Positions 31,536 to 36,365 of a stretch of 46,055 bases of DNA are shown one piece after another (position 1 is the first letter of the stretch; every line of letters starts with the position of its first letter). The notes below the pieces were generated by a model that worked only from the letters and a program-made list of their open reading frames with translations, was not told the DNA's origin and ran no database searches. The stretch covers positions 16,738-62,792 of the forward strand of contig JAOAGO010000014.1 of NCBI GenBank assembly GCA_026415715.1, given 5' to 3'. The translations under genes and the position numbers were made by a program. Origin of the DNA: Chitinophagaceae bacterium (GTDB lineage: Bacteria; Bacteroidota; Bacteroidia; Chitinophagales; Chitinophagaceae).

Positions 31536-32834
31536 CTAAAGATGCAAGAGAAATTGTTTAAGAGATGGATAGTCGGCTGCTATAGGTACAGATTTTTTTG
31601 GAAGCGACATCAGTTGGGCTACCTGTGGCGGTAAGGGGATATTGTGTCCGGTGATTTTTTCTACCTCTTCGGGAAACTTTACGGGATGTGCTGTTTCAAG
31701 AAAAATGCCTTTTTTGCCGGGATGAGGGCGAAGAAACTGATTCAACGCAGCGAGACCTACGGCGCCATGCGGGTCGCAGAGGTAATGACATATTTCATAC
31801 GTTTCGCGAATTGTTTCACGGGTTTGTTCGTCGGTAATGGTAAATGCCGAAAGATGTTGCAGCACCCGGGAATGCTGATGGGAAAATAATTCCAGAATTC
31901 TGATAAAATTACTGGGGTTGCCTACATCCATGGCATTACTTATGGTGGGCATTGTTTTTTTGTGCAGGCGTTCGCCCGTGAGCAAATAATGGCTTACGGT
32001 ATCGTTGATATTGCAGGCAGCGATGAAGCGGCTAACCGGCAAGCCCGAAAGCATGGCTAATATACCGGCGCTTAGATTTCCCAGATTGCCGCTGGGCACC
32101 GAAATGACGGGTGGATTGTCTTTTTCCGGCCACTGTTTCCAGGCCAGTACATAGTATATCTGTTGTGATATCCAACGGGAAATATTGATTGAGTTCGCCG
32201 AAGTGAGCCATAGCTTTTGTTTCAAATCCTTATCGGCAAAGGCTGTTTTAACCAATGCCTGACAATCATCAAATGTGCCGCTAACTTCAAGGGCATGGAT
32301 GTTTTTCCCAAGGGTGGTAAGTTGTTTTTCCTGTACATTGCTCACTTTACCGGAAGGATATAGAATTACCACTTCCACACCGGGCACTTCGTAAAAACCT
32401 GAAGCAACCGCTCCGCCTGTATCGCCCGAAGTTGCTACCAATACCACTACCCGTCCGTTGATGTCTTTAATAAAATAACGCAGGCAACGGCTCATGAAAC
32501 GGGCGCCTACATCTTTAAAAGCCATGGTTGGGCCGTGAAACAATTCCAGCGTGTATGCCTGCAGGCTCACCTGTCTGAGCGGAATCGGAAAGCAAAAGGT
32601 TTCGGTAACAATGGTCCATAAATCTTCGTCCGGAATTGAGCCGGCAACATAAGGTTTAATAACGCGGAAGGCAATCTCCTCATCGCTGAGTTTTTCAGGT
32701 TCGTTTATCAGTTCAGACGGAAACGAAGGAATATATTCCGGGAAATAAAGCCCTTTATCAGGAGGCTGACCCTGAATAACCGCTTCTTTATAGGAAACGA
32801 GCGGCGCCTGATGGGATGTGCTAAAGTATTTCAA
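31536..32834 (-). CDS. thrC: Threonine synthase
   Basis: PLP enzyme converting O-phosphohomoserine to threonine, the last step of the pathway. 432 residues of the E. coli-like (longer) class: MKYFSTSHQAPLVSYKEAVI, DKGLYFPEYIP, the PLP lysine in HGPTMAFKDVGARFM, LVATSGDTGGAVASGFY, SVPSGNLGNLSAGI and NAMDVGNPSNFIRILEL. It overlaps the 3' end of thrB by 14 bases, so translation is probably coupled. Last gene of the thrABC operon. Confidence 0.97.
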   Translation of the reverse strand: MKYFSTSHQAPLVSYKEAVIQGQPPDKGLYFPEYIPSFPSELINEPEKLSDEEIAFRVIKPYVAGSIPDEDLWTIVTETFCFPIPLRQVSLQAYTLELFHGPTMAFKDVGARFMSRCLRYFIKDINGRVVVLVATSGDTGGAVASGFYEVPGVEVVILYPSGKVSNVQEKQLTTLGKNIHALEVSGTFDDCQALVKTAFADKDLKQKLWLTSANSINISRWISQQIYYVLAWKQWPEKDNPPVISVPSGNLGNLSAGILAMLSGLPVSRFIAACNINDTVSHYLLTGERLHKKTMPTISNAMDVGNPSNFIRILELFSHQHSRVLQHLSAFTITDEQTRETIRETYEICHYLCDPHGAVGLAALNQFLRPHPGKKGIFLETAHPVKFPEEVEKITGHNIPLPPQVAQLMSLPKKSVPIAADYPSLKQFLLHL

Positions 32835-33738
32835 CGCCTTTTCGATTTATGGTTGTTACATAAGAATGATAACTGATATGGATTTTGTCTAAAATTTCCT
32901 GCATGGCTTGTTTTACGGTTTCGGCGGTGCTTTTTTCTCTGCTTAGCATAAACACGGAAGGCCCTGAGCCGGCAATACCCCCGCCTAATGCGCCGGCTTC
33001 TAGCGCTTTTGATTTTAGTTTTTGAAATTCAGGAATGAGGATGCTGCGTACCGGTTCCACGATGACATCTTCAAGCGAACGGGCAATGAGAGCATAATCT
33101 TTTTCATACAGGCCGGCTACCAGTCCGGCAATGTTTCCCCACTGTTTGATGGCATCTTTGAGCAGAATTTGTTTCTTCAGTATCTCCCGGGCATCAGAGG
33201 TTTTTACTTCAATTTGCGGATGTACGATAGTAATAAACAGTTCGGGCGCCGGGAGCGGCACGATATCCAGTGGAAAGATAGAGCGGATAAGAGTAATCCC
33301 TCCCATAAGGCAAGGTGCAATATTATCTGCATGTTTTACGCCGGAGGCAAGTTTTTCTCCGTTCATGGCAAACTGAATGAGTTCATTGCGGCTGAAAGGA
33401 TTTCCGAGCAACAGATTTGCCGCATAGGCAGCGCCTGCCGCGCTGGCAGCGCTGGAACCGATTCCGCTACCGGGTTTGATTTTTTTATCAATGGTGAGGC
33501 GAAATCCTTTTACCGATTCTGTTTTTTCTAAAAGCGAAAGCAGCGTAACGCCTGCCACGTTTTGATGCGGGTTAAGGGGAAGTTCAAAGGAACCCTCCAT
33601 ACAGATGTGTACACCCGGTTCATCCGTCAGTTCCAGTTTCATGATATCGTAAGGCTCGCAGAGAGCTAAACCCAGTACGTCGAATCCGCACACAATGTTG
33701 GCAATGGTAGCCGGTGATTTGATGATTACGGAACTCAT
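32821..33738 (-). CDS. thrB: Homoserine kinase
   Basis: GHMP kinase phosphorylating homoserine to O-phosphohomoserine. 305 residues: VIIKSPATIANIVCGFDVLG at the N-terminus, ATP loop IKPGSGIGSSAASAAGAAYA, and the C-terminal GHMP motif LGGGIAGSGPSVFML. All three conserved motifs are intact. It starts four bases after the thrA stop and overlaps thrC. Confidence 0.97.
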   Translation of the reverse strand: MSSVIIKSPATIANIVCGFDVLGLALCEPYDIMKLELTDEPGVHICMEGSFELPLNPHQNVAGVTLLSLLEKTESVKGFRLTIDKKIKPGSGIGSSAASAAGAAYAANLLLGNPFSRNELIQFAMNGEKLASGVKHADNIAPCLMGGITLIRSIFPLDIVPLPAPELFITIVHPQIEVKTSDAREILKKQILLKDAIKQWGNIAGLVAGLYEKDYALIARSLEDVIVEPVRSILIPEFQKLKSKALEAGALGGGIAGSGPSVFMLSREKSTAETVKQAMQEILDKIHISYHSYVTTINRKGVEIL

Positions 33739-33742
33739 AGTT

Positions 33743-36187
33743 TTATTTTGCGGCTCTTAAAATGTCTGCAAATATGCCGCTTGCGGTAACATCGGCGCCG
33801 GCACCGGCGCCTTTGATCACCAGTGGCTGTTCCTGATATCGGTCGGTATAGAATAACACCACATTATCTTTCCCGAACAAATGATAAAAGTCGTGTTCAG
33901 GGTAAATGTGTTCAAGCCCGACGGAAGCCTTTCCCCTGTCAAGCTTAGCCACAAATTTCAGCTTACACCCCTTTTCTTTTGCTTCAGCCAGCAGGCCATG
34001 AAAATGCTTTTCTTCTTCCGCCATGGCTTTATAAAAATCATCCACACTGCCTTGCAGGCACTTTTCCGGCAAAAAAGAACGGATTTCCACATCTGAAGGT
34101 TCTAGTATAAACCCGGCCTCTCTTGCCAGAATCAGTATTTTACGCATCACGTCAGTACCGCTCAGGTCCAGCCGGGGATCGGGCTCGGTATAACCTTCCT
34201 GTTGCGCCTGCCGAACTACATCGGCAAATTTCCGGCTGCCGTCGTAGTGGTTAAAAACGTAATTCAGCGTACCGCTGAGTACGGCTTCAATTTTGTGAAT
34301 CCGGTCTCCGGTTCTTACCAGATCGTTCAGCGTGGCAATGACAGGAAGTCCGGCGCCGACATTGGTTTCAAATAAAAAATGGCAATTGTATTCAGCGGAA
34401 AGTTTTTTCAAATTCCGGTAGCGGGAATAAGAAGAAGAGGCCGCCGTTTTGTTGCAGGCTACCACGGATATGCTGTGACGCAACAGGGCTGAATAAATGC
34501 CCGCCACATCACTGCTTGCAGTAATATCAACCATGATGGCATTGCGCAGGTTACGGCTCACCAGCTCTTCGGTCCACTCTTTCAGGTTCATTGTACGGCC
34601 CTTTTGCAGCAGCGTTTTCCAGTTCTGCAGGTCAATGCCCTTTTCGTCAAAAATCATCTTCCGGCTATTGGCCAGTCCTACCACCCGAAGTTCCAGTTTC
34701 AGGTGTTCTTTCAGGTATTCTTTTTGTTGCAAAAGCTGATGCAACAACCGTGAGCCGACATTTCCCGTTCCGGTAATGTACAGATTTATTTCTTTAAGCG
34801 TGGTTTCAAAAAACTCTTCATGCAGTACGTTTAGCGCTTTTTGAACATCGCGTGAGGCAATGACGGCCGAAATATTTTTTTCGGATGAGCCCTGGGCAAT
34901 GGCACGAACATTAATTCCGTTTCTGCCTAACGCACCAAACATTCTGCCGCTGATGCCGGTATGGTTTTTCATGTTGTCACCTACCAGCGCCACAATAGAT
35001 AATCCCGTTTCAGGAATGACGGGATCTACAATTCCCAACGCAATTTCATTGGCAAATGCTTTATCGGCCGCTTCACAAGCTTTGGATAATGAAGCCGCAT
35101 CAATGCCAACGGTAATGGAATGTTCGCTGGAGGCCTGCGTGATAAGGATCACATTTATTTTTTCATTGCTGAGCGCCTCAAAAAGTCTTTTGGAAAAACC
35201 GGGAATGCCCACCATCCCGCTTCCTTCCAAAGTAATGAGCGCCAGATTACCTATACTTGAAATTCCGGTGATGATTTGCTGTCCTGCTTTTTCCGATTTG
35301 TCATGAATAAGTGTGCCGGGGTCATTCGGAGCAAAGGTATTTTTGATTAAAACGGGAATTTTTTTAACCATGGCCGGCTGAAGTGTGGGCGGGTATATGA
35401 CTTTTGCACCAAAATGAGACAGCTCCATTGCCTCTTGATACGAAATTTCGGGAATGATTCGTGCATTCGGCACCCATCGCGGGTCGGCCGTCATCATACC
35501 GCTTACATCCGTCCAGATCTCCAGCATTTCAGCATCCAGTGCCGCAGCAAAGAGTGCTGCCGTGTAATCAGAACCGCCGCGCCCCAGTGTTGTGGTATGT
35601 CCCTCTTTATCCGATGCAATAAACCCCGGAAAAAGATACACATCAGCCCTGTGGGCAGAATAGAAATCCCTGATATTCCGGTACGTGGTCTCAAAATCAA
35701 CGGCGGCAGCCGTAAAGGTTGAGTTGGTTTTAATTAACTGACGACTGTCGTGCCAGCATACTTGTAACGATTCAGTTTGAAGTTTTCCGGCAATAATTTG
35801 CGAAGAAAGCCATTCGCCGTAGGCAGCCACCCGGTCTTTTGTTTTGGGCGTAAGTTCGCGCAGTTGAAACAACCCGGAGCAAAGTTCTTCCAGTTCGTTA
35901 CAGGTTTTCTTTACCAGACTCAGTAACCGGCTCTGTATGGTTACCGGTATCAGTTGCTGTACGGCCTCCAGATGCCGTTTTTCAATTTGTTCCAGTATGG
36001 TTTTATATTCTTCGCTGCCCTGAGCCGCTTCATCAGCTGCCCGAAGTAACATATCGGTTATTCCGCCCATCGCTGAAACCACTACGGTAACCGGCCGGAT
36101 GCGGGCCGCTTGCAAAATAATTTCAGATACCTTTTTTATATTTTCAGCATGAGCTACCGACGATCCGCCAAACTTTAATACTTTCAT
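33743..36187 (-). CDS. thrA: Bifunctional aspartokinase / homoserine dehydrogenase
   Basis: 814-residue fusion catalysing the first and third steps toward threonine. Aspartokinase half: KFGGSSVAHAENIKKV, TTLGRGGSDYTAALFAAAL, ELSHFGAKVIYPPTLQPAM. The middle has two ACT domains (about 310-460), the usual feedback-inhibition site for threonine: SGMVGIPGFSKRLFEAL and KNHTGISGRMFGALGRNGIN. Homoserine dehydrogenase half: NLYITGTGNVGSRLLHQLLQ (NAD(P) loop), TNVGAGLPVIATLNDL, DPRLDLSGTDVMRKILILAR and end KGAGAGADVTASGIFADI. The upstream leader indicates attenuation control by threonine/isoleucine. Confidence 0.98.
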   Translation of the reverse strand: MKVLKFGGSSVAHAENIKKVSEIILQAARIRPVTVVVSAMGGITDMLLRAADEAAQGSEEYKTILEQIEKRHLEAVQQLIPVTIQSRLLSLVKKTCNELEELCSGLFQLRELTPKTKDRVAAYGEWLSSQIIAGKLQTESLQVCWHDSRQLIKTNSTFTAAAVDFETTYRNIRDFYSAHRADVYLFPGFIASDKEGHTTTLGRGGSDYTAALFAAALDAEMLEIWTDVSGMMTADPRWVPNARIIPEISYQEAMELSHFGAKVIYPPTLQPAMVKKIPVLIKNTFAPNDPGTLIHDKSEKAGQQIITGISSIGNLALITLEGSGMVGIPGFSKRLFEALSNEKINVILITQASSEHSITVGIDAASLSKACEAADKAFANEIALGIVDPVIPETGLSIVALVGDNMKNHTGISGRMFGALGRNGINVRAIAQGSSEKNISAVIASRDVQKALNVLHEEFFETTLKEINLYITGTGNVGSRLLHQLLQQKEYLKEHLKLELRVVGLANSRKMIFDEKGIDLQNWKTLLQKGRTMNLKEWTEELVSRNLRNAIMVDITASSDVAGIYSALLRHSISVVACNKTAASSSYSRYRNLKKLSAEYNCHFLFETNVGAGLPVIATLNDLVRTGDRIHKIEAVLSGTLNYVFNHYDGSRKFADVVRQAQQEGYTEPDPRLDLSGTDVMRKILILAREAGFILEPSDVEIRSFLPEKCLQGSVDDFYKAMAEEEKHFHGLLAEAKEKGCKLKFVAKLDRGKASVGLEHIYPEHDFYHLFGKDNVVLFYTDRYQEQPLVIKGAGAGADVTASGIFADILRAAK

Positions 36188-36265
36188 GTGACGTACATTT
36201 TACCGAAAAGAAATAGGGGTTTACGGTTATGCGGCAATATGCCCTGAAGTGGAAATGTTAATTTT

Positions 36266-36283
36266 ACTCCGCTAACGCGGAGT
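36266..36283 (-). repeat. Perfect 7-bp hairpin at end of thr leader ORF
   Basis: ACTCCGC and GCGGAGT with a four-base loop. It covers the last three sense codons and the stop codon of the leader ORF, so a ribosome stalled on the Thr codons would leave it free or mask it depending on position. Confidence 0.7.
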
Positions 36284-36325
36284 TGTGGTTATTGTGGGGT
36301 GAATATGTAGATCGAACAGAATCAT
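36272..36325 (-). CDS. Threonine operon leader peptide (candidate)
   Basis: A 17-codon ORF, MILFDLHIHPTITTTPR, starts about ten bases after the thrA promoter's -7 element and ends 84 bases before thrA. Four of its 17 residues are Thr and three are Ile, with TITTT near the end. That is the design of leader peptides whose translation senses the charged tRNA of the pathway product, as in E. coli thrL. Its stop codon lies within a perfect 7-bp hairpin (36266-36283). Length, position and composition support it; expression is not shown. Confidence 0.6.
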   Translation of the reverse strand: MILFDLHIHPTITTTPR

Positions 36326-36334
36326 TATCTGCCG

Positions 36335-36365
36335 CAAAAGTAAAAATGCAACGGGTATAAAACAA
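36335..36365 (-). promoter_or_regulatory. Putative thrABC promoter
   Basis: Minus strand TACTTTTG (36335-36342) matches TAnnTTTG. TTG (36363-36365) sits exactly 20 bases upstream, in the -33 position. The start of transcription would fall a few bases before the leader ORF, about 140 bases before thrA. Confidence 0.55.

Follow-up and report, generated by a model that had tools for sequence, protein, structure and literature searches.

A conserved threonine/isoleucine-rich leader upstream of thrABC in Chitinophagaceae as a probable amino-acid sensor

How does the region upstream of thrABC in a Chitinophagaceae bacterium compare with the amino-acid leaders described so far? In Escherichia coli, thrL has a hairpin by the end of its leader ORF, and in the Rfam family Bacteroid-trp (RF01692) a biosynthetic gene is preceded by a leader ORF rich in an amino acid. 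Bacteroidota begin translation largely without Shine-Dalgarno sequences. According to an excerpt of PMC9291695, the E. coli thrL1 pause is lengthened by NusA and is taken to be hairpin-stabilised, and a 5′ hairpin mutation left it nearly unchanged. The available portions of two comparative studies place leader-peptide attenuation mainly in other phyla: the Rfam amino-acid leaders perhaps originated in gamma-Proteobacteria (PMC3766115), and leader peptides had earlier been known only from Proteobacteria and Actinobacteria, Firmicutes then being added (PMC2965389). For Bacteroidota, excerpts of published work contain the suggestion of leader-peptide attenuation upstream of amino-acid operons in Flavobacterium psychrophilum (PMC9723704) and small ORFs "reminiscent of leader peptides" in Bacteroides thetaiotaomicron. 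The remark in the initial annotation of this DNA that such attenuation is less documented in the phylum was a fair one, but these two and RF01692 are precedents. The main text of PMC9723704 has 0 occurrences of "threonine" and of "thra", and overlap through its Table S7 is conceivable. The literature searched, insofar as its excerpts reach, contains no description of the present thr leader; Lopatovskaya et al. 2010 (cited in PMC4833913) may cover Bacteroidetes.

We analysed a stretch of 46,055 nucleotides, the whole of which is called the window here. In it, thrA, thrB and thrC, all exceeding their NCBIfam cut-offs, follow in this order downstream of a short leader (Table 1), which sits inside the 220-nt gap that separates thrA from the upstream gene mqnE (aminofutalosine synthase). 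The initial annotation had described a 17-codon ORF, rich in Thr and Ile, that lies between a Bacteroidota-type promoter box and thrA and ends inside a perfect hairpin, and our analysis bears out each of these points. The leader ATG comes 9 nt past the predicted box TACTTTTG, which we take to be a -7 box of the Bacteroidota type (consensus TAnnTTTG). A sigma-70 scan found no promoter; by eye, TATATTG- or TATCTTG-like boxes precede the leader in many relatives. The stop codon TAG (36274..36272) falls on the border between loop and 3′ arm of hairpin 1 (hp1), its T and A being within the GTTA loop and its G forming the first base of the arm. Also by eye, many family members have a palindromic DNA motif like AAACTAACRNNTGTTAT, a possible transcription-factor site, across the -33 region of their thrA promoter (L163, L164, L166, L175, L182, L186, L188, L189, L193-L195, L197, L199, L211 and L213).

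Table 1. Positions of the leader elements and the thr genes in the window
Feature	Position	Strand	Basis or remark
-7-like promoter box TACTTTTG	36335..36342	-	sequence reading, predicted
Leader ORF, 17 codons + TAG, MILFDLHIHPTITTTPR	36272..36325	-	Thr/Ile-rich; hairpin at stop
Hairpin 1 (hp1), 7 bp, ACTCCGC-GTTA-GCGGAGT	36266..36283	-	sequence and RNA fold
Linker-motif position, here CATTTCCA (divergent from CATAYYAYC)	36250..36257	-	alignment with relatives
Hairpin 2 (hp2), GGCA-TAT-TGCC	36233..36243	-	formed in RNA fold; covarying
Region from hp2 to thrA	36188..36232	-	weak ACCG/CGGT hairpin; no U-tract terminator found
thrA, bifunctional aspartate kinase/homoserine dehydrogenase I	33743..36187	-	NF006959, 1033 bits, cut-off 726
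thrB, homoserine kinase	32821..33738	-	TIGR00191, 223 bits, cut-off 168
thrC, threonine synthase	31536..32834	-	TIGR00260, 275 bits, cut-off 167; start codon as listed mechanically

The window holds 1,009 ORFs with lengths of 8-60 codons. Three of them have at least four Thr residues among their last nine, and in three the stop falls inside a hairpin loop whose stem has 6 bp or more, four or more of them G/C pairs; the thr leader ORF, scored in this count from an in-frame TTG at 36337 with the same stop, is the only one of the 1,009 with both. The predicted leader RNA starting at 36331 folds at -27.7 kcal/mol, compared with a mean of -19.2 for shuffled sequences (z -2.67; 1 of 200 shuffles equals it), and the fold contains both hp1 and hp2. 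An intrinsic terminator scan returned nothing on the minus strand of the window, its terminator-like site being hp1 as read on the plus strand. The competing pairing proposed in the initial annotation is present in the DNA, where GCGGCA (36335..36330) is complementary to TGCCGC (36236..36231), and it forms in the fold of a longer RNA. However, the first base of the GCGGCA arm is also the last of the -7 box, which means that little of the arm would be transcribed, and the pairing is absent from the fold starting at 36331; we therefore rejected it as the main switch.

Is this arrangement shared by relatives? Within the genus, all 13 full-length thrA genes with enough upstream DNA are preceded by a Thr-rich ORF whose end lies in the loop of a hairpin (the window plus L002, L003 and L005-L014, L004 being cut by a contig end), and L015, a partial thrA match, also fits the covariance model R1, which was built from 38 sequences. 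In 29 further family genomes (L031-L059), a Thr-rich frame was present in every case and its stop lay in a hairpin loop in 27. The loci L047 and L056 keep hp1 and have the stop codon 3′ of it, so that a ribosome would read through the hairpin. The addition of 60 family upstream regions gave 102, of which 98 were pooled, leaving out L174 (start misplaced, leader visible, R1 match), L185 (leader visible, R1 match), L205 (an AACCC/GGGTT remnant that R1 does not match) and L212 (start misplaced, neither a leader nor a match seen). In this sample, skewed to similar ThrA proteins because it was taken from the top of a ThrA-similarity ranking, a Thr-rich ORF that stops at a hairpin was found in 96 of the 98 regions, 0/98 reverse complements and 0/490 shuffles; the corresponding control counts for the Thr-rich ORF alone were 1/98 and 36/490. 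The two that did not pass are presumably L165 and L207, whose ends are Ile-rich or mixed. R1 matches 98 of 100 sources on the thrA-sense strand, training sequences included, having missed L004 and L205.

Of 294 family genomes, 208 have thrA, and from these we drew a second sample of 40 other genomes, 32 of them those with the weakest ThrA matches. R1 matched 30 of these at E ≤0.1, and a reading of the best match of each showed that 26 of the 40 carry, upstream of thrA, either a Thr/Ile leader or the hairpin and motif conserved in the class; in 22 of the 26 the thrA start was located within 210 nt. At L302, L305, L309 and L310 a Thr-rich leader is present with no start by a crude pattern, one of them lying at a contig end. 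The remaining 14 of the 40 have no convincing leader, ten being unmatched and four giving unrelated-looking matches (G071, G170, G268 and G308). The leader is absent from all five tested g37 genomes (G071, G170, G240, G290 and G329) and both tested g53 genomes (G087 and G181), an apparent loss or replacement of the element. Thus, the leader is common rather than universal in the family and is kept by most of the family genomes examined. The initial annotation had taken a lack of conservation in close relatives as grounds for its refutation; the comparison found the leader conserved there, with the covariation of hp1 given below.

Judged from its sequence, the leader in the window is a divergent member of this strongly conserved class. 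Its R1 score of 41.6 bits is the fourth-lowest of 98 and the lowest of the 13 genus members. In its own genome, where 150 of 1,175 candidates were scored, the thrA site is the sole significant R1 match (E 4.7e-8; next, 0.68). It is short and, by eye, lacks the hairpin that many relatives have before the Thr run. With these features, and with CATTTCCA in place of CATAYYAYC, it may work less well or differently. The window (L001) has mqnE upstream, unlike most of its genus relatives, which indicates that the neighbourhood has changed in the lineage with the divergent leader. By eye, the end of the upstream gene encodes a conserved peptide like GSVKKAADS in most of L002-L013.

What has been conserved is both a peptide and an RNA. 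Across 97 family leaders, read in the frame chosen by Thr/Ile content, codon positions -11 to -3 are 56% Thr and 23% Ile, and all four Thr codons occur. In 43 close leader pairs, differences are commonest at the third codon position (84, against 39 and 35), and Thr/Ile swaps account for 25 of 64 non-synonymous codon changes. In the hp1 and hp2 alignment, which leans towards structure because it was fitted to it and includes two antisense rows, 94.0% of cells are paired, a value that 0/500 shuffles reached; shifting the pairing partners along the alignment gave at most 49%. Double-sided changes occur in 7 of the 10 pairs (45 such cells), that is, in 4/7 pairs of hp1 and 3/3 pairs of hp2, in which 94.8% of cells are paired. 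Between the two hairpins lies the near-invariant unpaired motif CATAYYAYC, whose columns 45-46 (A, T) are identical in 98/98 rows; column 47 is A in 99% of rows and T in the window. The spacing from hp1 to the motif is exactly 7 nt in 74/94 leaders, whereas the commonest stop-to-motif distance is held by 38/94. The position of the motif thus follows the hairpin, not the stop codon. Upstream of the Thr run, where many relatives have a further hairpin by eye, pairing between two zones amounts to 6.97 base pairs compared with 4.09 in shuffles (96 leaders).

The leader also extends beyond the family. A search of 80 named loci with R1 yielded 25 matches (E ≤0.01), every one of them in sense orientation and no more than 175 nt upstream of thrA. 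Ten are Chitinophagaceae-like, several being duplicates of records already used; the 15 outside comprise Flavobacterium (four), Polaribacter (three), Chryseobacterium (two), Tenacibaculum, Kordia, a Flavobacteriaceae MAG, and MAGs labelled Fulvivirga, Balneolaceae and Bacteroidia. The ORF-plus-hairpin scan passes 35/80 named loci (reverse complement, 1; shuffles, 0/400) and 21/48 loci of two other families (reverse complement, 1; shuffles, 1/240). In seven relatives from other families of the same order (L016-L022), the first scan found no leader and R1 gave one weak antisense match of 13.8 bits. A class-wide search found R1 matches at E ≤0.01 in at least 17/395 genomes (19 places), a floor because 12 candidates per genome were scored; judged by the ORF read downstream, 12 places lie before thrA and seven (L073-L079, two identical) do not, compared with about four expected by chance. 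Since related thr leaders occur in Chitinophagaceae, Flavobacteriaceae and Chryseobacterium and in a Fulvivirga MAG, this kind of control would seem to be of old date and widely used among Bacteroidota. Five loci (L121, L122, L126, L127 and L128) from the family to which Chryseobacterium probably belongs have, by eye, a Thr-rich leader of another appearance, with inverted repeats and a T tract between it and thrA, so that two thr-leader designs may coexist in that family.

We conclude, from the comparative sequence evidence, that the thr leader is very probably a real amino-acid (Thr/Ile) sensor that acts through leader translation. In our main reading, to which we assign a probability of roughly 0.7, it would act in cis and tune thrABC to charged tRNA-Thr and tRNA-Ile by means of the ribosome, hp1, CATAYYAYC and hp2. 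A ribosome would translate the short Thr/Ile-rich ORF behind the advancing RNA polymerase. When Thr and Ile are ample, it would arrive at the stop codon and open hp1; in shortage, it would stall upstream on the Thr/Ile run and hp1 would remain folded. The state of hp1, together with the single-stranded CATAYYAYC about 7 nt downstream and hp2, would then decide whether transcription gets to thrA. The sequence comparison itself shows the ORF with its conserved Thr/Ile codons, the covarying hp1 and hp2, the near-fixed spacing of hp1 and motif, and thrA as the one significant site in the genome; translation of the leader, stalling as the signal and the direction of control are what we infer from it.

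Because both a U-tract terminator and a switch were sought in the family leaders and not found, the output step is a guess: most likely, hp1 would stabilise a pause of the polymerase at which the RNA 3′ end lies within or close to CATAY, and Rho or a similar factor, instead of a U-tract terminator, would end transcription early. The near-fixed spacing between hp1 and the motif fits a hairpin-stabilised pause, as E. coli thrL1 is thought to be, whereas the finding that a 5′ hairpin mutation barely altered the thrL1 pause would, by analogy, count against this proposal. In its wider form the idea is tentative, and we hold it at somewhat less than even odds: a widespread Bacteroidota thr leader may sense Thr and Ile through leader translation without an antiterminator/terminator, the single hairpin hp1, the near-fixed spacer and the unpaired CATAYYAYC being a ribosome-released pause or a factor-binding module on which the further progress of RNA polymerase depends.

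Alternatively, the leader might be a classical attenuator of the E. coli type, in which hp1 competes with a downstream antiterminator/terminator pair and an intrinsic terminator precedes thrA. The inverted repeats and T tracts at the five loci mentioned above are of this kind, and the hp1 3′ arm folds with sequence beside a T tract in L113 and in Chryseobacterium L230; such terminator-like structures in a few relatives from other families could mean that one sensor has been joined to different outputs in different lineages. T-tailed terminator hairpins are also present in trp leaders of the window's own family (by eye; the T tail is broken up in L145). These trp leaders are of the MKK..WWWHTN..RGL type and stand upstream of a TrpE-like ORF (by eye). 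Six of the seven seen (L141, L143-L145, L147 and L148) served as our control, in which complementarity was -15.6 compared with -10.1 kcal/mol in shuffles and all six were positive. Against this background, the 97 family thr leaders show no excess of complementarity to downstream sequence for either the 3′ arm of hp1 (-5.21 vs -5.24 kcal/mol in shuffles, p 0.25) or its 5′ arm (-4.92 vs -4.81, p 0.46), a test of duplex energy only, which weak or tertiary alternatives could escape. The competing hairpin claimed in the initial annotation is thus not supported in these leaders. Nor are runs of at least five T enriched between hp2 and thrA (25/97 leaders vs 292/970 shuffles), and even 39 leaders from other families with an ACCCC/GGGG hairpin show no overall excess (-5.88 vs -5.98 kcal/mol, p 0.18), so that the hp1 3′ arm as a general Flavobacteriales terminator was rejected and kept for a few sequences. 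A third hairpin, with the 3′ arm of hp2 as terminator, was likewise rejected (pairing probability 0.41 vs 0.39 in shuffles, p 0.96). On balance, we regard a classical attenuator as unlikely. The leader has what leader-peptide regulators in the broad sense have, a short ORF rich in codons for the products before the cognate operon and a conserved hairpin near the ORF end; since the two defining features of the classical type, mutually exclusive pairings and an intrinsic terminator, were tested and not found, we do not file it there, although it can still work like one.

The unpaired AU-rich motif flanked by two hairpins could also point to control of translation or mRNA stability, the position of the ribosome exposing or hiding an RNase site in CATAYYAYC or gating the thrA start. 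Consistent with this, the linker is less complementary to hp1 than shuffles are (-3.47 vs -4.46), and the RNA 3′ of hp2 folds more strongly than its shuffled counterparts (-5.4 vs -4.0 kcal/mol, p 4e-7, n=96). However, the structure adjoining thrA shows no sequence conservation among the family leaders and its distance to the start codon varies, and this explanation seems to us quite improbable. A further possibility is that some regulator binds to the motif and hairpins, with the Thr-rich ORF secondary. This would accord with the location of the most constant unpaired columns in CATAT and with the palindrome upstream of many relatives' promoters, but over the last codons it is the amino acids that are conserved and no set string of nucleotides, and for binding alone there would be no need of that; we give this very little credence. 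The unusual anatomy of the thr leader makes it a compact, testable system for the coupling of translation and RNA polymerase in Bacteroidota.

With respect to known families, the leader is without a match in Rfam 15 at the thrA site: Thr_leader (RF00506), T-box (RF00230) and Bacteroid-trp (RF01692) gave none there, either in the whole window at the gathering thresholds or in 351 bases at E up to 10. RF01692 also gave no hit in the window's own genome at E up to 1 under stricter filters, and it stayed below its cut-off in 60/60 family genomes searched. The six control trp leaders, which encode M..WWWHT..GL/GM-type peptides, score under that cut-off as well and are apparently diverged Bacteroid-trp members that Rfam's threshold would miss. 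Unlike these trp leaders, which have a T-tailed hairpin and strong complementarity to the leader end, the thr leaders have neither. Unlike E. coli thrL, the family thr leaders have no conserved antiterminator/terminator or enrichment of T runs, the leader in the window has no match to RF00506, and we know of no counterpart of the conserved CATAYYAYC and hp2 in thrL. The attenuation logic of thrL that the initial annotation had invoked is accordingly supported for a probable Thr/Ile-sensing leader with a covarying hairpin and not supported for the competing hairpin and, by implication, for the intrinsic terminator. The likenesses are as clear: as in E. coli, a probable Thr/Ile-sensing leader peptide stands directly upstream of thrABC, the leader in the window has a hairpin by the ORF end, and the thrL pause, too, is taken to be hairpin-stabilised. 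The leader shares with Bacteroid-trp and the family trp leaders an amino-acid-rich ORF before a biosynthetic gene in the same phylum, and with the structured 5′ regions of F. psychrophilum, as excerpts of that work describe them, the clues to leader peptides at amino-acid operons of Bacteroidota.
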